A DNA stretch of 32,036 bases, taken from Spirochaetales bacterium (GTDB lineage Bacteria; Spirochaetota; Spirochaetia; UBA9216). The stretch's first letter is position 1, and each line of letters starts with the position of its first letter. Shown here in pieces: positions 11,356 to 20,105 of the stretch. The stretch covers positions 1 to 32,036 of the forward strand of contig JAISRN010000027.1 of assembly GCA_031273605.1 (NCBI GenBank). Direction: 5' to 3'. The notes under the pieces are model-generated. The model worked only from the letters and a program-made list of their open reading frames with translations. It did no database searches and was not told where the DNA came from. The position numbers and the translations under genes were made by a program.

Positions 11356-11395
11356 AACGGTATGCGCTAATACGTCCAGGCATACCGTTTTTTTT
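11356..11395. terminator. Hairpin at the end of the flagellar operon
   Basis: AACGGTATGC (11356-11365) pairs perfectly with GCATACCGTT (11380-11389) over a 14-nt loop, directly downstream of the last gene of the flagellar operon. The T-run (11388-11395) follows the stem on the plus strand. For the minus-strand operon the stem is instead preceded by an A-run that overlaps the last stop codon, and is followed by CTTAAC. It may end minus-strand transcripts without a strong U-tract, protect the mRNA 3' end, or stop antisense transcription. Confidence 0.5.
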
Positions 11396-11981
11396 ATTGT
11401 CCCAGGGACAGGATCATTTCCACCTCGCTTAAGGACAACTTGAGCCCCAGGGCAATTTCATCGGGTTTTTTCCCCTCCCGGTTCATCTGAAGGACCTTTT
11501 CCTTGGTCGTCTGTTCCCGGCCCTGGACGGGAAGGGGCCGGGAGTAAACCGGCGGGGAGGGTTCCCTGATTTTTCGGCGGAAGCCGACGGAGGCCGGGGG
11601 GGGCGGGACTGAAGAGACCGGAGACGCCGGGAAAGGGGCTTCGCCGGGGGGGGACTCCTCTACCCGGCGGATCTTGAGAGACAGGGGGGACGAAGTTTGT
11701 TCAGCGCTGCGGAGAAACTTTTCCCCTTCCTTTTGCAGGAGAAGGATTCGCTTATCCCCCTCTTCCAAAAGGCCGTAGAGCTTGCCGATCCGGTCCTCAA
11801 TGAGGTTAATGTTGCGATCCGTGGTTTGGTTAAGCTCGGTGATCACCCTGTCCACCTCCGATTCAAGCTCGGAAAGGATGTGATCGGGCCGGAGGAATCT
11901 ATCGATCCTCCGGCGCAGCAAAAGGTAGATGAGGCACAGGAGGATAATATCCAGGCCTAGGATGATCGCGGCCAGTTTCAT
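11394..11981 (-). CDS. Membrane-anchored coiled-coil protein with SwrB-like C-terminal domain
   Basis: A 195-residue protein with four parts: an N-terminal transmembrane helix (about 4-22), a charged coiled-coil region (about 33-95, with heptad-like ELESEVDRVITELNQ), a Pro/Ser-rich linker (105-150), and a C-terminal helical segment with KVLQMNREGKKPDEIALGLK followed by LSLSEVEMILSLGQ. The last part matches the HTH-like pattern G-K-x-x-DEIA-x-x-L-x-x-S-x-x-EVE-x-IL found in SwrB/YlxL-type proteins (DUF6115) and in the proteobacterial DUF2802 group. In Bacillus, swrB follows sigD at the end of the fla/che operon and promotes flagellar basal-body maturation; this gene also sits near the operon end downstream of fliA. 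Homology is inferred from architecture and position. The start has AGGA overlapping the preceding stop. Confidence 0.7.
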   Translation of the reverse strand: MKLAAIILGLDIILLCLIYLLLRRRIDRFLRPDHILSELESEVDRVITELNQTTDRNINLIEDRIGKLYGLLEEGDKRILLLQKEGEKFLRSAEQTSSPLSLKIRRVEESPPGEAPFPASPVSSVPPPPASVGFRRKIREPSPPVYSRPLPVQGREQTTKEKVLQMNREGKKPDEIALGLKLSLSEVEMILSLGQ

Positions 11982-11983
11982 CT

Positions 11984-12307
11984 TTATCCTGTAATGTCCA
12001 GATGACGCCCCAGGTCCGGATCTTCGATGTTCTCCCTATCTTCCCTGTCCTCCGCTTCCGGCGGATGGGGGCGGTGTTTGGGTTCCTGCCCGCCGGGACC
12101 GGCTCCCTCCTCCCCCACCGAATTGAGATCGGACTCCGTTTTTTCGGTTTCGTTGATGTGGGTGTCCCGCTGTTCCGCCTGGCGTACCGCCGCGAGGAAC
12201 TGCTGGGATTGCAGAAGGGAGGCGGAATTTTTTTCCACCGCCTGTTCCTTGCCCGCCTGATTAAGCTGGGTAAAGAGGGTCTGCATTTCGATAGGACGAA
12301 TTGACAT
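11984..12307 (-). CDS. Small conserved-type flagellar-operon protein ending in GRHLDITG
   Basis: A 107-residue soluble protein without signal peptide or membrane helix. It begins MSIRPIEMQTLFTQLNQ, a probable amphipathic helix, and continues with Gln/Glu/Ala-rich helical sequence to about residue 55. A disordered, very acidic and His/Pro-containing middle follows, and the sequence closes with DPDLGRHLDITG. The ordered first 20 residues and the compact hydrophobic/charged C-terminus, joined by low-complexity sequence, suggest a protein with two binding ends. I recall similar small proteins with an IRP/LQ start and an LDI end beside DUF342 and SwrB-like genes in Firmicutes and spirochaete flagellar operons, but cannot check it here. 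Function unknown. It is 3 nt after the DUF342 gene and 2 nt before the SwrB-like gene. Confidence 0.7.
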   Translation of the reverse strand: MSIRPIEMQTLFTQLNQAGKEQAVEKNSASLLQSQQFLAAVRQAEQRDTHINETEKTESDLNSVGEEGAGPGGQEPKHRPHPPEAEDREDRENIEDPDLGRHLDITG

Positions 12308-12310
12308 AGT

Positions 12311-14275
12311 TTACTCCCCCGCCTCCATGCCCTTGGGCTTTCTTGAAGCCATATCCTCTTTCATCTCCTCGTACTTAACCGGGGTAATGTCATGGTTGTC
12401 ATTGATCAGGGTAATGGCCCTAAACTCGGTGCGAACTTTTAAGGAAGCATCTTTAATGATAACCTTAACTCCCGGATAAATCCGGGAAGAAGCGGAAACT
12501 TTGCCCGCTACTAAAAGGGAGCTCATGTGTTCCCGCAGTTCCTCCTGCTCCCGCTCCAATTCCTCCTTGCTCCCGGTGAGCTCCGCCTTTTTTTCCTGAA
12601 GCTCCCCGTAGTAGCCTTCTTTGTCTTCCGGCAGACCCCCCTTAGCCTTCTTGAGGCTTTCCAGGGTGGCCAGGTTGCGTTCGATATCCTCCAGGTCGTT
12701 TCTGAGTTCCTGCAGGGCCTCTTCAAGCTCGACCATGCGGCTGGAACTCTTAGGATCGTAGCCCACTTCAATGATGGTTTCCGATCCCGTGGGGGAGCCA
12801 AAGGTCTTGGCCCGGACCTCCTCGGTAGCCCGGAGGCGGCCCCCCACGATGGTGGCCCTCTTGCCTTCGGAGATGATCATTTTATTGGAATCCACGTTGG
12901 AGTTGATGATTCCATCGGAGGCAAAAACAATTTCCCCCGCAACAATGTTGGAGTTTTCGATAAATTTAGCCCAGACTCCCTTGGCGGCCCGGATGGCCCC
13001 TTCGGTTTTGCCGTTGATACCCTGCCTAACGATGATATCCCCCTCGGAATCCAGGTCCGCCTTGCCCACGTTGCCCTCAACCTCGATGTTCCCCGCGGCC
13101 TTAACCTTAAAGCCGTCGGCCACGCTCCCCTTAACGATAACGGTTCCCAGGAACACCACATTGCCCCCGGATTTGAGATTAACATCCCCTTCCACCACGT
13201 AAATGGGTTCGACATTGATCCTGTCCCCGTCCATGATCACCTGGCCGTTGATTTCGGCCACCGCGGTGGCGCCGTTCTCGGCGAGCCGGACATTCCTGCC
13301 CACTTCAAACTTAATGTCCGTTCCGGCCCGGGTGGGCAGGAGTTTGCCCAAAACGGTACGCCCCGGAGTTCCCTCGTCCGGGGGAATCTTCTTGGCCAGA
13401 ACCTGCCCCTCCACGACGTTAAGGATGAAGTTCATCTCTTTAAAATCCACCCGGCCGTTCCGTTCCTTGAGCTCCTTGGTGTGGCGGTCCAGTTCAAAAT
13501 TGTAGGTAATCCTCGCGTTTTTCCCCGGAACGGGGGAGGTTCCCTTGGCAACGCAGACGGGGGTGTTATAAACAGGCATATTTTCCAAGTCCAGCAGCAG
13601 GTCTTCATTGATGCCGTGGATCACCCCGTTGGCCTTGAGGAGGCCGAGGATGGCCGGGGCCGCCAGATCCGAGCCCCCCGGTCCGGGGGGGGCAATCACC
13701 ACGAAGGCGGACATCTCGTTGTCCCGGATATCCACGGAAAGCATGGAATCGTTTAAGGGGTTATGCTCAAAATTACCCACCCAAACCGATTCGCCGTCGG
13801 CCAGGCGGACGATCTTCTTTACCAGGTTCCGGTCAAAATCGGTGATCCCCCGTTTTTCCAGGCTTTCCAGGGCCATTTTTTCGGTAACCCGGCGGCCGTT
13901 GCCCTCCGGGGGAAAAACCTTGAGCATGACCCCCTCCGGGGCCAGGCGGACAAAGACCTGTCCGTCCATGTCCACCGGGGTTTCCACATCCTCAAATTCC
14001 GAATCCGCCTCTGCGCCGGTTCCTTCCTGCTGCGGGGCGGCGGCCTTTGCCTCGTAGGCCAGGATCTTAACCGGTTTTTTGCCCATCCCAAAGACGCCCC
14101 TGGCGCCCTGTTCAATTAGCTCGTACTCGATCTTGCGGAGGGGCAGGCCCAATTCAATAGTGGCCTGGGCTAGGGCATCCTCAATGGTGGCGCCCTCCAC
14201 CGTTACCGACGAGCGGGTACGCTCATCCTCCGCCTTTTGCCGCATAAAACTGCGGATTTCCGCCAGTTCGATCAT
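12311..14275 (-). CDS. Jag_N-DUF342 (FapA-like) protein
   Basis: A 654-residue protein combining three regions. Residues about 20-73 are a Jag_N-type domain (VTVEGATIEDALAQATIELG and GARGVFGMGKKPVKI), the domain found at the N-terminus of KhpB/Jag. Residues about 100-500 are DUF342/FapA, ending in a right-handed beta-helix-like series of short strands and turns (NVEPIYVVEGDVNLKSGGNV, GNIEVEGNVG, GDIIVRQGINGK). Residues about 513-590 are a charged coiled coil, then a final beta segment. FapA of Vibrio vulnificus affects flagellation, and DUF342 genes often sit in flagellar operons. The protein is cytoplasmic by sequence. A ribosome binding site (AAGGGG) overlaps the fliA stop codon 8 nt upstream. 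Biochemical role unknown; polymer or scaffold formation is plausible. Confidence 0.88.
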   Translation of the reverse strand: MIELAEIRSFMRQKAEDERTRSSVTVEGATIEDALAQATIELGLPLRKIEYELIEQGARGVFGMGKKPVKILAYEAKAAAPQQEGTGAEADSEFEDVETPVDMDGQVFVRLAPEGVMLKVFPPEGNGRRVTEKMALESLEKRGITDFDRNLVKKIVRLADGESVWVGNFEHNPLNDSMLSVDIRDNEMSAFVVIAPPGPGGSDLAAPAILGLLKANGVIHGINEDLLLDLENMPVYNTPVCVAKGTSPVPGKNARITYNFELDRHTKELKERNGRVDFKEMNFILNVVEGQVLAKKIPPDEGTPGRTVLGKLLPTRAGTDIKFEVGRNVRLAENGATAVAEINGQVIMDGDRINVEPIYVVEGDVNLKSGGNVVFLGTVIVKGSVADGFKVKAAGNIEVEGNVGKADLDSEGDIIVRQGINGKTEGAIRAAKGVWAKFIENSNIVAGEIVFASDGIINSNVDSNKMIISEGKRATIVGGRLRATEEVRAKTFGSPTGSETIIEVGYDPKSSSRMVELEEALQELRNDLEDIERNLATLESLKKAKGGLPEDKEGYYGELQEKKAELTGSKEELEREQEELREHMSSLLVAGKVSASSRIYPGVKVIIKDASLKVRTEFRAITLINDNHDITPVKYEEMKEDMASRKPKGMEAGE

Positions 14276-14283
14276 GGTTCCCC

Positions 14284-15072
14284 TTAGAGGATTCCCCTCT
14301 TTAAGTTACTGAGCTTGGTCCGCAGATGCAGGATGGCCTTGGTATGAAGCTGAGAAACCCGGGACTCCGTAACCTCTAAAATCTGTCCAATTTCTTTCAG
14401 GGTAAGGTCTTCGTAGTAGTACAAAACTAAAACTTTTTTTTCTTTTTCAGGAAGGTCGCTGATGGCCTTAACGATAACCCGCTTGATTTCCTCTTTTTCC
14501 ACGATGGTATCGGGATTCAGGCTCTGGGGGGACTCAATGGAATCCACAATGGAAACTTTATCGTTGTCTTCCCCGGAATACCAAACGTCATGGAGGGACA
14601 AAATGGCGGTGCCGGAAATGCGCAGCAGGGTTTTTTGGTAGTCCTCCAGGCTGACGTTAAGTTTAGCGGCTACCTCCAGGTCCGAGGCGGTGCGGCCCAG
14701 GGAAGACTCCAGGGCGCTTACGGTTTCTTCGATCTCCTTGGCCTTTTGCCTGACGGACCGGGGAACCCAATCGACGGAACGCAGTTCGTCAAAAATGGCG
14801 CCCCGGATCCGGGTAACGGCATAGGTTTTAAATTTTACATTTTTATCGGGATCAAATTTATCAATGGCGTCAAAAAGGCCGAAGATGCCGTAGCCCACCA
14901 GATCGTCAAATTCCACGTTGTGGGGCATTCCTACCGCCACCTTTCCGGCTACGTACTTTACGAGGGGAGCGTATTGCTTAATGAAGGCATCCCGCACTTT
15001 CGGGTCCTTGTTTTTTTTGTAGTCGTTCCAGAGGTCCTGTTCGTTTTTACCGTCTATGAACCCGTCTCCCAT
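14284..15072 (-). CDS. fliA: Flagellar sigma factor sigma28 (FliA/WhiG type)
   Basis: A 262-residue group 3 sigma factor directing transcription of late flagellar and chemotaxis genes. Region 2 (about 30-100) contains [37 protein letters not shown] and [28 protein letters not shown], which is diagnostic for FliA/SigD/WhiG. Region 3 includes [20 protein letters not shown]. Region 4 (about 205-255) has [20 protein letters not shown] and a helix-turn-helix ending [17 protein letters not shown]. The ATG at 15072 is preceded by AGGAAGG. It lies 10 nt after an unknown membrane-protein gene and 8 nt before the DUF342 gene. No FlgM gene was seen in this window. Confidence 0.97.
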
Positions 15073-15082
15073 ACTAGCCTTC

Positions 15083-15760
15083 CTAATCTTTTTTCAACAT
15101 GGTTTGGATTGCCATTGCGGCTTCATCCGGATGATGCTCTCCCCCCAAAAGATCAATGGTAACCTTTTTGGGGGCTTGGGGAGAAGCGCCGGAGGAGGCG
15201 CCCCCGTTAAAAGCCCCTTCTAAAACCCCCAGGTCCTCATCCCCCTCCTCTTCGTCCAGGGTTTCCAATTCCTCCTCGTCTTCGGGTTCCAGTTCCGCCC
15301 CGGAAGAATCCCCCGGAATGGCGGCGCCGACAGGGGGCACGCCGGCCGGCCGGTCAGCCTGAGGGGCGGCGGGGGCCCGGGCAGGGGCGTCTTCCCCGGC
15401 GTCCTCCAGTTCATCCGCAAGCTCATCTTCCAGTTCGCCCTCCCCTTCCCCGTCCAGAACAATATTGATTCTTTCCCCCGCCGGCGGGCCGGCCGGGCCA
15501 TCGCCCATGAAGATCTGATCCGGATCCTCCGAATCTTCCCCGGCCTCCGGCTCCCCGGGGGAGTCAAAAAGCTCAGGAAGGAATCGCCGGCAGACAAAAT
15601 AGGCGCCGTTAAAGAGGGCCGCCATAGCCAGGGCGGAACAGAGGCCGCGAAAGAACAGGCCCCCCGGGGTAACATCATGAAAAAGGCCCAGCACAAAGGA
15701 GAAAATAAAGGCCCCCGCGGCGATGAAGGCTGTTATCCTAATTTTAATCAAATTCCCCAC
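15083..15760 (-). CDS. Unknown two-helix membrane protein with long acidic tail
   Basis: Not recognised as a named family. After a short basic N-terminus two hydrophobic helices are predicted (from about [20 protein letters not shown] to [17 protein letters not shown]), so both ends are likely cytoplasmic. About 120 residues follow that are extremely Asp/Glu/Pro/Ala-rich and probably disordered (for example [16 protein letters not shown]). The C-terminus is again ordered: [29 protein letters not shown] chose GTG at 15760, with AAAGGGG upstream; a TTG at 15805 is possible but lacks a ribosome binding site. The gene is between flhG and fliA, 10 nt before fliA. The conserved-looking tail could be a binding peptide for a flagellar partner, but nothing proves this. 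Confidence 0.7.
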
Positions 15761-15855
15761 CCATTTCCCCTTTAATAGCTTAGGATAAAAACGCCGGTCC
15801 GTCAAGCCGGGTTTTATCAGCAGCGGCCATCCCCAGGGATAACCACAGGGTCTTC

Positions 15856-16722
15856 CTAAAGCCGCCCGAAAAGGCGCTTAATAAAACGGTTAAGGCCGCT
15901 CCCCTCCGAAAATTCCGATTTTTCCAGCCGGTTGGCAATGTCGGTGATGCAAATGGAAGCCTTGGAGGAGGGATTATCCGCCAAAAAGGGTTTCTGCTTG
16001 ATCACCGCCGCGGAAACCGCAGGATCGTCGTACACGTAGCCCAGGTAATCCACCTTGATATTTAAAAATTGATTGGCAATGGCAATAACCCGTTCCGAAA
16101 CTTTTTTCCCCTGGGTAACGCTCTTAACCCGGTTTACAATGAGCTTGAGGTTTAAATCCTTGGCGTCCATCTCGGTGGCAATGATCTTAACGATGCCGTA
16201 CGCGTCGGTAATGGCGGTGGGTTCCGGGGTGGTAACGATGATCACGTCATCCGCGGCGGCCACAAAGGCCAGCACGTTGCTGGAGACCCCCGCGGAGGTG
16301 TCGATGATAATAATATCCGCCGAGGAAAGCTCCGAAAGTTCGCTGATAAACCACTTCCGTTCTTCCTCTTCGAGGTTGGCAATCTTAAAAAATCCGGAGG
16401 CCCCGGCGACGATGCTTATGCCGTAGCTGGTTTCAATGATAATTTCCTTCATGGTTTTTTGACGGCGGATAATATGATAAAGGTTATACTTGGGGATGAC
16501 CCCTAGGATAACATTGACGTTGGCCAGTCCAAGATCCGCATCCAAAACGATAACCTTCTTGCCCAGTTTGGCATAGGCAATCGCCAGGTTGATGGACAGG
16601 TTGGTTTTGCCCACCCCGCCCTTTCCGCTGGAAACACTGATGATTCTGGTTTTTTGCTGCTTAGTTTCCCCTGAAGGTTTGCGATCCTTCATAATTTCCC
16701 TTAGTCCGTCTGCTTGGTCCAT
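15856..16722 (-). CDS. flhG: Flagellar number regulator FlhG (YlxH, MinD-like ATPase)
   Basis: A 288-residue deviant-Walker-A ATPase of the MinD/ParA family. The N-terminal DQADGLR (residues 2-8) fits the DQAxxLR motif that stimulates FlhF GTPase. The P-loop is SGKGGVGKTNLSIN (32-45) with the signature Lys34 and Lys39/Thr40. VIVLDADLGLANVNVILG is the switch I/A-prime region, and IIIIDTSAGVSSNVLAFV the Walker B/switch II. The C-terminal KRLFGRL is basic and amphipathic, similar to membrane-targeting tails of this family. FlhG with FlhF sets the number and site of flagella, which in spirochaetes means periplasmic flagella at the cell poles. The start overlaps the flhF 3' end by 22 nt and has GGAGAAGGG upstream. 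Confidence 0.95.
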   Translation of the reverse strand: MDQADGLREIMKDRKPSGETKQQKTRIISVSSGKGGVGKTNLSINLAIAYAKLGKKVIVLDADLGLANVNVILGVIPKYNLYHIIRRQKTMKEIIIETSYGISIVAGASGFFKIANLEEEERKWFISELSELSSADIIIIDTSAGVSSNVLAFVAAADDVIIVTTPEPTAITDAYGIVKIIATEMDAKDLNLKLIVNRVKSVTQGKKVSERVIAIANQFLNIKVDYLGYVYDDPAVSAAVIKQKPFLADNPSSKASICITDIANRLEKSEFSEGSGLNRFIKRLFGRL

Positions 16723-17972
16723 TCTTTGCCCTTCTCCAAATAGTTTTCGCCTCTCAGCTTTTCGATATTGATCGTAAAGTTTTCCAGATTCTTAATGAGC
16801 CGGATCTTCGTGGCCGGCTCCATGTCCCAGGGGACTCCCTGCCCAAAGGTAATGTAGGCCAGGGGTTTGCCTGTTTCCGCTAAAACGCTTATGATGTTTC
16901 CGATCCTTTGGGTTTCATCCAGCTTGGTAAGGATCACCGCGGCGTAACCAAAGGACTCATACTCCCGCAGAATATCCCGCATGTCCGAAGCCTTGGTGGA
17001 GGCGCTGATGAGCAAAAAATACTCCGCCCGGCTTCCCAGGGGGGAAAGGATCTCCCGCATGTGGGCTATGTTAAGATAGTCCCGGGGGCTGCGGCCGGTG
17101 GTGTCCACCAGGATCCAGTCCGCGGCGGCAAAAAGGTCCGCCTTTTCTTTAAGCTCCTCCCGGCTTTTGGCCTGGGCCAGGGGAATTTCCAGAATGTTGG
17201 CGCAGCTTTCTAACTGCTCAACCCCCATGATCCGGTAGTAATCGGTGGTTATCAGGCGCACCTCTTTGGGGCCCGTTTGATCTTCTTCTTTTTTTATGCG
17301 CCCCGCAAGTTTAGCGATGGTGGTGGTTTTGCCTACTCCGGTGGGGCCGAGAAAAACCAGCCGCCGGGGGCCTTCTCCCTTATCGGGGTAAATTTTTATT
17401 TTATCGCAGAGATACTTAACCGTCTGCTCCTGAACCGCGGCAAAATCCTCCAGGGCGGAAAGGGGCAGTTCGTCCTTAAGCCTGGCGGTAAGCTCCCGGA
17501 TAAGGGGCAGGGAAAAATCATTCTGGGCCAGGAGGTCTTCGATTTTAACCAGATGGGGATGCCCCTCTTCTTTGGGGCGGCTCTCCTGACGGGATACGGT
17601 TTCCCGGATCTCCTTAAGCTCCTTAAGCACCCGGTGAATTCCCGGCTCCGTGGGGGGGGGCGGTTCGCCGGCCTGCCCCCCCGGGGGGACCCCCTGGGTC
17701 GGCCGGGGCGCCGGGGTTTCGGAGGGCCGGGCCGCCAGGGCCGCGGCGGCGATGATCCGGTTTTTCTCCTCCTCCAGCCGCATTTGCTTTTGGTGGCTTT
17801 TTTCGTCCGAGACGTAGCCGGAAACCTCCACCCCCTCCCTGGCAAAGAGGCCCAGAAAACCTCCGGTCCGGATAGTCCGGTAACTTATGATGGTATACTC
17901 AGGACCGTACTTGTCCTTAATTTTTTGCTTAACATCCAGATAGCTCAAGCCCTGCTCGCTAAAGTACTGCAT
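16701..17972 (-). CDS. flhF: Flagellar SRP-like GTPase FlhF
   Basis: A 423-residue SRP-type GTPase that positions the flagellar basal body. The N-terminal B domain (1-110) begins MQYFSEQGLSYLDVKQKIKD with YGPEYTIISYRTIRTGGFLG and becomes Pro-rich at about 83-110. The N domain follows, then the G domain with G1 LGPTGVGKTTTIAKL (208-222), the SRP-family TTDYYRIMGVEQL segment, G3 DTTGRSP (290-296), and G4 TKLD (349-352). The C-terminal ITFGQGVPWDMEPAT motif is typical of FlhF/FtsY/Ffh. FlhF and FlhG are neighbours and translationally overlapping. The stop of flhA is 3 nt upstream. Together with FlhG this defines polar placement. Confidence 0.96.
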   Translation of the reverse strand: MQYFSEQGLSYLDVKQKIKDKYGPEYTIISYRTIRTGGFLGLFAREGVEVSGYVSDEKSHQKQMRLEEEKNRIIAAAALAARPSETPAPRPTQGVPPGGQAGEPPPPTEPGIHRVLKELKEIRETVSRQESRPKEEGHPHLVKIEDLLAQNDFSLPLIRELTARLKDELPLSALEDFAAVQEQTVKYLCDKIKIYPDKGEGPRRLVFLGPTGVGKTTTIAKLAGRIKKEEDQTGPKEVRLITTDYYRIMGVEQLESCANILEIPLAQAKSREELKEKADLFAAADWILVDTTGRSPRDYLNIAHMREILSPLGSRAEYFLLISASTKASDMRDILREYESFGYAAVILTKLDETQRIGNIISVLAETGKPLAYITFGQGVPWDMEPATKIRLIKNLENFTINIEKLRGENYLEKGKEWTKQTD

Positions 17973-17975
17973 CTT

Positions 17976-20105
17976 TTACCTTCTTCCTCCGGCAGCCGCC
18001 GTTTCCTCCTCCACAGGGGCGGTTTGTTCCGGGTTTATCTCCCCCAGCCTCTCCACCTTAAAGGCAGGATCAATTTCCGGAACCGAAATAACCGCCGTCT
18101 CGGGGAGCTCCCGGCGGATGGCGTTCCTGACCAAAACCCGGGCGGGCTCGGAGGTAAGGATAAGTCCGGTGTAACCCTGATTTTGCCCCGCCCTGATCAT
18201 GTTGGCCGCCAGATTAAGCCAGCGCCGCTGCAGCTCCGGGGCCAGGGCCGCCACCGGGCCGGCGGCGGTATCCACCCGGGAATCAATGATCTCCTGCTCC
18301 AGGGCGGGGTTAAGGGTCCACACGTGGAGAACCTTGTTTTCGTCCGCCAGGGCAAGGCAGATCTCCCGGCTTAAAACCTGCCGGACCTTTTCTACCAAAA
18401 AGGTGGTATCCCGGGAAACCGGCGCGTAATCCGCCACGGCCTCCAGGATGGTAACGATGTTTCTGATGGAAACCTGTTCCTGCAAAAGCCTCTGCATGAT
18501 CTTGAGCACTTCCCCTAAGCTTAAGGTTTTCAGCACCTCATCCACCACGGAGGCGTAATCGGATTTGAGGGCGTCCAAAATCCGCTGCATTTCCACCCGG
18601 CCCAGCAGTTCATGGGCGTGGCTCTTGATAACCTCGGTAAGGTGGGTGGCGATAACCGACTGGTTGTCCACGATGGTAAACCCCGCCCGCTCCGCCCGGT
18701 CGCGGTACTCCTCGGTGATCCACTTGGCGGGAAGTCCAAAGGCGGGGTCCGTGGTTTTCTCCCCCGGAATTTCATCCGCCAAACCTCCGGGATTAATGGC
18801 CAGGTAATGACCCATCCGGATGATTCCCGTACCCATTTCCACGTTTCTGATCTTGATGCAGTACTGAACGGCTTCCAGGCGCATATTGTCGATGATCCGG
18901 ATTCGGGGAACCACCAGGCCCAGTTCCAGGGCTGTTTCCCGGCGAATCCGGGTGATCCGGTCCAGAAGTTCCGAAGACTGATCCTTGTCTACCAGGGGAA
19001 TGAGGCCGTACCCCAGCTCCAGAGAAATGGGATCCGGGGGCGCCACCGGGGAGAGTTCCGGGGAGGCGGAGACCGCGGCGGACTTGGTTTTTTCTTTTTC
19101 GGTCTGCACCGCCGCCTGCTTTTTCCGGCTTAAGAGGTAGGCGGAAAAGCCCACAAGAATTCCCAGGGGACCCAGGAGATACCAGGGAAAACCGGGAACA
19201 AAGGCCAAAAGGAAAAGAAAGATCGCCGCAATCCAGTATATCCGGCTGTCCCGGGTAAACTGTTCGGAAATGTCCCGGCCGAAGGTTCCGTCGGAAACCG
19301 CCCGGGTAACGATGAGACCGGTGGCGGTAGAAACCAAAAGGGAGGGGAACTGGGTGATAAGGCCGTCCCCTATGGTAAGGCTGATGTAGTTGCTGATCGC
19401 GGAGGAAGCTGATTCGCCGTGGATAGTAACCCCCACGATAAATCCCCCCACCATGTTAATCAGGGTAATAAAAATCCCTACCTTGACATTGCCTGAGATG
19501 AACTTGCTGGCTCCGTCCATGGAGCCGTAAAAATCGCTTTCCTTTTGCAGGTCCCGCTTGCGCTGCCGGGATTCCTCCTCGGTAATGGCGCCGGAACTGT
19601 ACTCCTGCTCTATGGCCATTTGTTTAACCGGCAGGGAATCCAGGGTAAACCGGGCGGCCACTTCCGCGACCCGGGTGGCCCCCTTGGTGATCACCACAAA
19701 CTGAACCGCGATAATGATGATAAAGATGATAAGGCCGATAACCATGCCTTCCGTTCCCCCGGCGCCCACCACAAAGCTGCCGAAGGCCCGGACCATCTGG
19801 CCGTTAAAGGCCGCCCCCCGGGACAAAATAAGCCGGGTTGAAGAGATGTTTAAGGCCAGGCCGAAAACCGTGGAAACCAAAAGCAGGGTGGGAAAAACAG
19901 AAAAATCAAGAACCCGCCGGGTGTAGAGGACAATGAGGATAATCAGCAGGCTTAGCCCCAGGTTAAAGATCATGAAAAAATCCAGCAGCCAGGCGGGAAG
20001 GGGGATGATCATCATCATCACAATAACGATGACGCCCACCGCCACCAGGGCTTCGGATTTATCGCTTAAGAGAATCTTTCGGATGGATCCGGCAATGTCA
20101 GACAA
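17976..20105 (-). CDS. flhA: Flagellar export gate protein FlhA
   Basis: A 709-residue core component of the flagellar type III export gate. The N-terminal half contains about eight hydrophobic segments, starting with ALVAVGVIVIVMMMIIPLP and ALNISSTRLILSRG. The FHIPEP loop is represented by TRVAEVAARFTLDSLPVKQM and DFYGSMDGASKFISGNVKVG, with the essential charged residues in the expected places. GDGLITQFPSLLVSTATGLIVTR precedes the last helices. The cytoplasmic domain (from about 345) begins after a short Lys/Ala/Ser/Pro linker and forms the chaperone-substrate docking ring. Length and order match spirochaete FlhA. It follows flhB by 25 nt and precedes flhF by 3 nt. Confidence 0.98.
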   Translation of the reverse strand: MSDIAGSIRKILLSDKSEALVAVGVIVIVMMMIIPLPAWLLDFFMIFNLGLSLLIILIVLYTRRVLDFSVFPTLLLVSTVFGLALNISSTRLILSRGAAFNGQMVRAFGSFVVGAGGTEGMVIGLIIFIIIIAVQFVVITKGATRVAEVAARFTLDSLPVKQMAIEQEYSSGAITEEESRQRKRDLQKESDFYGSMDGASKFISGNVKVGIFITLINMVGGFIVGVTIHGESASSAISNYISLTIGDGLITQFPSLLVSTATGLIVTRAVSDGTFGRDISEQFTRDSRIYWIAAIFLFLLAFVPGFPWYLLGPLGILVGFSAYLLSRKKQAAVQTEKEKTKSAAVSASPELSPVAPPDPISLELGYGLIPLVDKDQSSELLDRITRIRRETALELGLVVPRIRIIDNMRLEAVQYCIKIRNVEMGTGIIRMGHYLAINPGGLADEIPGEKTTDPAFGLPAKWITEEYRDRAERAGFTIVDNQSVIATHLTEVIKSHAHELLGRVEMQRILDALKSDYASVVDEVLKTLSLGEVLKIMQRLLQEQVSIRNIVTILEAVADYAPVSRDTTFLVEKVRQVLSREICLALADENKVLHVWTLNPALEQEIIDSRVDTAAGPVAALAPELQRRWLNLAANMIRAGQNQGYTGLILTSEPARVLVRNAIRRELPETAVISVPEIDPAFKVERLGEINPEQTAPVEEETAAAGGRR

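Follow-up and report, generated by a model that had tools for sequence, protein, structure and literature searches.

The 32,036-nt stretch of spirochaete DNA analysed here, which we call the window, contains a flagellar operon ending in three tightly packed genes behind the flagellar sigma factor, and it raises the question of what the last of these genes contributes to flagellar assembly. All genes of the operon lie on the minus strand. Profile matches over cut-off identified flhA, encoding the export gate protein (17976..20105, TIGR01398), and flhF, encoding an SRP-type GTPase (16701..17972, with TIGR03499 matching at 17094-17972). flhG, encoding a MinD-like ATPase (15856..16722), was assigned by profile match and gene order, and fliA, encoding the sigma-28 factor (FliA/WhiG; 14284..15072), by profile matches. 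Between them lies a candidate FlgV (bb0268) gene (15083..15805), proposed from hydropathy, position and a comparison with another locus (L246) made by eye, not by profile; its product has two hydrophobic segments (peaks 2.33 and 1.62) with an arginine in or before the second, a long polar tail and a C-terminal peptide. After fliA come, at a distance of 8 nt, fapA (DUF342; 12311..14275, 654 aa), 3 nt further a small gene (11984..12307, 107 aa) and, after another 2 nt, the last gene (11394..11981, 195 aa). The initial annotation had described this packing and had named the first product a Jag_N-DUF342 protein; both were borne out, the latter by Pfam, which placed an N-terminal Jag_N (1e-13), FapA_N (2e-47) and FapA (2e-69) over cut-off. 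Scans for consensus promoters and terminators returned sites no more numerous than in shuffled sequence. Right behind the stop codon of the last gene, at 11356-11390, is a perfect 10-bp inverted repeat (AACGGTATGC / GCATACCGTT) with a T-run on the plus-strand side, away from the operon side.

The gene order itself is not new. The sections of Zamba-Campero et al. (2024; PMC11607428) on which we draw describe a sub-module of sigma-28, FapA, YjfB and "TM + HTH" genes beside FlgV in many phyla, with the genes and order of the window in both spirochaetes and Firmicutes, so that the window, with its FlgV candidate on the other side of fliA, is an ordinary instance. The paper assigns no function to the last protein, here called TM+HTH, and is silent on SwrB and, in those sections, on FipA. 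YjfB is their name for the small protein and rests on that paper; no Pfam match to the YjfB family was obtained for the small proteins of the window or of eight relatives, and the window protein had no Pfam family at E<=1. Its ends, PIxxQTLF near the start and DPDLGRHLDITG at the end, with GRHLDITG as the C-terminus, enclose a charged, variable middle, and among relatives both ends are conserved as PIDLQ and DPDLGxxIDISG. A pattern scan for the fliA motif named loci from many phyla. Close to fliA, the small-protein profile also has matches in Armatimonadota, KSB1, Deferribacteres and Gemmatimonadetes (L042 651-968, L056 5904-6230, L074 6729-7049, L125 4035-4388), all of which end in I-D-[IL]-x-V. 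Two more FapA_N proteins are encoded outside the flagellar operon (G000:C126 787-1302 and G000:C133 6330-6863, in frames of 540 and 996 aa), and most relatives have 4-8 FapA_N matches per genome.

Conservation was assessed in 60 spirochaete relatives, window genome included. A search with the window protein found TM+HTH in 48/60, a profile added one more (G042), and FlhA was found in 49/60. The two proteins occurred together in 48/60 genomes and were both absent from 10/60; the two discordant genomes were G017, with FlhA only, and G059, an incomplete genome with TM+HTH only. TM+HTH tracks flagella in spirochaetes. Furthermore, 28 relatives have loci that span the stretch, and every one of them keeps fapA, the small gene and TM+HTH in the same order and strand, so the arrangement is not due to chance, and the co-inheritance predicted by the initial annotation was also seen across phyla. 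Tight packing and near-universal co-occurrence in spirochaetes would suit a machine built around FapA with its Jag_N domain, the small protein and TM+HTH serving only as its membrane tether. We consider this improbable, since TM+HTH is retained in L263, which lacks FapA, the small gene and FlhG, and in many Bacillales that have only sigD followed by TM+HTH; the three genes share an order but, contrary to the three-gene module first proposed, they are not an obligate trio.

Reduced operons extend this picture. In G042 only flhF-fliA-TM+HTH is left of the operon, FlhG, FapA and the small gene being absent from it. Two genomes of 1.0-1.2 Mb (G025 and G047) have flhA-flhF-flhG-flgV-fapA-small-TM+HTH with no fliA in the operon, flgV and one of the small genes having been identified by eye. 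TM+HTH is therefore dependent on neither sigma-28 nor FapA, and in the sigma-28-less loci L246 and L247 it stays with flhF. The reduced module flhF-fliA-TM+HTH, with a TM+HTH of 105 aa, is a trait of one spirochaete genus (L263 2679-7986, and L260); the sister genome G017 has lost TM+HTH as well. The 10 FlhA-less genomes mostly keep FlhF-like proteins and have no TM+HTH, indicating that the presence of TM+HTH goes with the flagellum and not simply with FlhF. These FlhF-like GTPases, some of them with FlhG, occur in genomes without FlhA, TM+HTH or FapA, with one weak exception (L255-L259, L261, L262, L264 and L265, in G054, G014, G023, G009, G008, G039, G035, G034 and G046), which hints at a role of FlhF outside flagella.

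What kind of protein is TM+HTH? Hydropathy of the window protein shows a single strong hydrophobic segment from residue 4 with positive charge behind it. In the AlphaFold2 model, helices at 2-29 (membrane) and 32-96 (coil) and a disordered stretch at 97-158 are followed by a C-terminal helix-turn-helix (HTH) of helices 159-168, 173-180 and 184-194, modelled with a pLDDT of about 95. This domain (residues 159-195, coding positions 11397..11507) is common to the C-termini of DUF6115, DUF2802/FipA and SpiroCoCo proteins. In the window protein it matched NCBIfam SpiroCoCo_C (NF047515) with E=1e-7, DUF6115 (PF19610) with E=4e-4 and 21.1 bits, under the 27-bit cut-off, and DUF2802 (PF10975) with 13 bits, under the curated cut-off of 33.5 bits; TM+HTH of the relative L263 reached 26.6 bits with DUF6115. 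SpiroCoCo proteins share the C-terminal helix pair but differ in being coiled-coil proteins of about 1,000 aa that are encoded elsewhere. In the window genome, a SpiroCoCo-like coiled coil with this helix pair is encoded by a 1110-aa frame beside grpE (L031 1492-3342; G000:C37 around 9100, minus strand), which is the best match of this genome to DUF2802 (2.6e-6) and DUF6115 (28 bits, over cut-off); the DUF2802 search ranked it first and the window TM+HTH fifth.

An HTH on a membrane helix suggests a membrane-tethered transcription factor that would bind DNA near flagellar genes and couple membrane or assembly state to transcription, and the best PDB sequence matches of the domain include the HTHs of RcsB, NarL and resolvase. 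The third helix of ordinary HTHs is the one that reads DNA. Here it is acidic and hydrophobic in the spirochaete proteins (mean charge -1.8), in their Bacillota counterparts and in FipA (-0.8 and -1.05 in these two groups), as compared with +1.4 in LuxR and +1 in sigma region 4, making protein binding more likely than DNA binding. FipA moreover works via FlhF (PMC11620751), and fla/che transcript levels are unaffected by SwrB (PMC4526659), which together leave a role in transcription very improbable.

The initial annotation had likened the last protein to SwrB of Bacillus subtilis, and this comparison was supported. As in TM+HTH, SwrB and the DUF6115 proteins of related Bacillales have one N-terminal membrane helix, a cytoplasmic part and an HTH end. 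At the level of full-length family profiles, the spirochaete and Bacillota SwrB-position proteins matched with 99.2% probability over 158 columns, so a DUF6115 relationship holds for the families, though the window protein alone falls below the Pfam cut-off. Bacillota loci were examined in two sets, 30 phylum-wide and 30 Bacillales-wide. In 59/60, TM+HTH is immediately preceded on its own strand by fliA/sigD, fapA or the small gene, so the order shared across phyla is real, if already known from the published module. The order flhA, flhF, (flhG), fliA, (fapA), (small), TM+HTH was seen in 31/32 loci of which 13-18 kb were examined, and the spirochaete small-protein profile found counterparts in 20/30 and 14/30 loci of the two sets. 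In B. subtilis it is swrB that directly follows sigD, as TM+HTH does in many Bacillales. Spirochaete TM+HTH likewise closes the sigma-28 operon, with two genes between it and fliA. By position and sequence, TM+HTH matches the DUF6115 proteins of the SwrB position in Bacillota. The B. subtilis genome, included as a control, was among the DUF6115 matches, its SwrB not being identified by name there; no NCBIfam SwrB model matched ten Bacillota proteins tested, and these are therefore not nameable as SwrB by profile. Several Bacillota proteins beside fliA-fapA match both DUF2802 and DUF6115 at one C-terminus. Our literature search found no mention of DUF6115.

The initial annotation missed a second resemblance, to gammaproteobacterial FipA, although this gives the best hint at a mechanism. 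FipA (DUF2802) requires its membrane helix and binds FlhF through G110 and L129 (V. parahaemolyticus numbering), with E126 invariant; its gene follows an flhA-flhF-flhG-fliA-che operon, and its discoverers report that Bacillus and spirochetes lack it (PMC11620751). Its architecture of membrane helix, coil and C-terminal DUF2802-like helix pair is present in TM+HTH, judged by hydropathy and the AlphaFold2 model, and one N-terminal membrane helix followed by positive charge is common to the spirochaete (30/30 by hydropathy and charge bias), Bacillota and FipA proteins. Like the TM+HTH gene, that of FipA closes the flhA-flhF-flhG-fliA region, and FipA occurs with FlhF; it differs in that its gene comes after the che genes, adjoining cheW (the upstream neighbour in 8/10 tested), and in bringing FlhF to the cell pole of polar flagellates.

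A family search gathered the gammaproteobacterial FipA set, of which 22 sequences were aligned. Full-length profiles matched with 97.4% probability between Bacillota proteins and FipA and with 95.3% over 94 columns between spirochaete proteins and FipA, and two domain profiles, A1 and A2, matched each other at 97.3% over 43 columns, ungapped. Controls against the same profiles gave 4-92% for LuxR HTHs, 55-92% for Rpn tails and at most 15% for sigma region 4, the Rpn nuclease tails, chosen as decoys for sharing the helix-pair motif, scoring near FipA in some comparisons. When a gamma-only FipA profile was run against 9,148 ORFs, ranks 1-89 were all TM+HTH members, membership having been set with the spirochaete and Bacillota profiles, and the best spirochaete E was 8e-10; this set was partly gathered via DUF2802 or DUF6115 searches, the spirochaete proteins not being so gathered. 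Spirochaete proteins scored a median of 22 bits with this profile, compared with at most 7.7 bits for decoys and 8.0 bits for full shuffles. By part, the C-terminal 62 residues contributed a median of 12.6 bits and the membrane helix plus coil 12.2 bits, a share that may be partly compositional. The likeness is weak when the HTH is compared alone: in 56 gamma genomes the HTH-only profile A1 (41 residues) found FipA, but LuxR HTHs scored equally, and short-domain E-values were therefore not counted as proof. The C-tails of transposase- and nuclease-like proteins have a helix pair, "G-x4-IA..TGLS..EI", so alike that it is easily confused with the HTH domain (L034, L036, L168, L170-L172, L215). 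A comparison of the FipA domain with solved structures gave no good match.

The residues that FipA needs for FlhF binding sit in the third HTH helix and in the turn preceding the second, and they align without gaps to TM+HTH. A glycine and a glutamate separated by 15 intervening residues occur in 29/30 spirochaete, 37/38 Bacillota and 22/22 FipA proteins, an identical spacing, and most relatives have the leucine. The window protein keeps G170 and E186 and has M189 at the position of this leucine, which is found in 28/29 spirochaete proteins. As the HTH profile by itself does not tell FipA from LuxR, the case for homology rests on domain, topology, residue spacing and operon context in combination, which make it likely, though not proven, that TM+HTH is distantly homologous to FipA. 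The addition made here is that FipA of gammaproteobacteria appears to belong to one family with spirochaete TM+HTH and the proteins at the SwrB position in Bacillota. In the literature searched we found no paper treating SwrB and FipA together; the idea may stand in the published peer review of PMC11620751.

By analogy with FipA, we infer that TM+HTH binds FlhF and has a licensing role: it would be a membrane-anchored, probably oligomeric early-assembly adaptor whose HTH docks FlhF and licenses basal bodies, a reading to which we give a probability of roughly 50%. The N-terminal helix would anchor the protein, the coil would probably self-associate, and the long flexible linker would present an HTH turned from DNA binding to protein binding. 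The surface round G170, E186 and M189 could then dock FlhF, or the nascent basal body, at the membrane, forming a platform that holds the young basal body until its maturation is licensed. Such a step could also account for the pre-hook stall of basal bodies upon SwrB loss, and FapA and the small protein may be accessory parts of it. This adaptor is supported by what the analysis showed: the order of the genes, their inheritance along with flagella, their place beside flhF, the relationship to the SwrB-position proteins, the predicted fold and the matched residues. Against it stand the scores of the window protein under the DUF6115 and DUF2802 cut-offs, the inseparability of the HTH alone from LuxR, the closeness of the Rpn control and the retention of FlhF without TM+HTH in most of the ten FlhA-less spirochaetes.

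Evidence from B. subtilis also points elsewhere. SwrB is needed for hook assembly and export activation there, in the only organism for which this role is known, and its suppressors point to FliP and FliG (PMC4526659); basal bodies are mobilised by loss of SwrB and not by loss of FlhF (PMC12153297). The literature we found names no direct partner of the SwrB cytoplasmic domain. The protein might thus be a SwrB-like activator of the export gate. Its cytoplasmic domain would turn on type III export by way of FliP, FliG or the C-ring, FlhF would take no direct part, and the likeness to FipA would reflect shared ancestry with changed partners; that spirochaete TM+HTH follows FlhA rather than FlhF agrees with this. 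We nevertheless think it unlikely, though a serious contender, because all three groups conserve the residues that FipA needs for FlhF binding, and because FlhF is in the same operon in 31/32 loci from Bacillota and is retained where FlhG has been lost.

The FlhF-docking adaptor leads to a broader and more tentative proposal, which could well be correct, that SwrB, FipA and spirochaete TM+HTH are members of a single ancient family, in which a repurposed HTH tethered to the membrane serves as an adaptor for FlhF. If this is true, the known members have been given separate names and described as missing from one another's phyla, and one FlhF-dependent licensing step would be common to peritrichous, polar and periplasmic flagella. 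A 2025 review calls the landmarking of FlhF/FlhG-dependent placement outside monotrichous bacteria unclear (PMC12826062). If SwrB and the spirochaete protein are relatives of FipA, the placement landmark and the partner of SwrB would become one question, that of HTH-FlhF binding, for which the relevant residues are already known from FipA.
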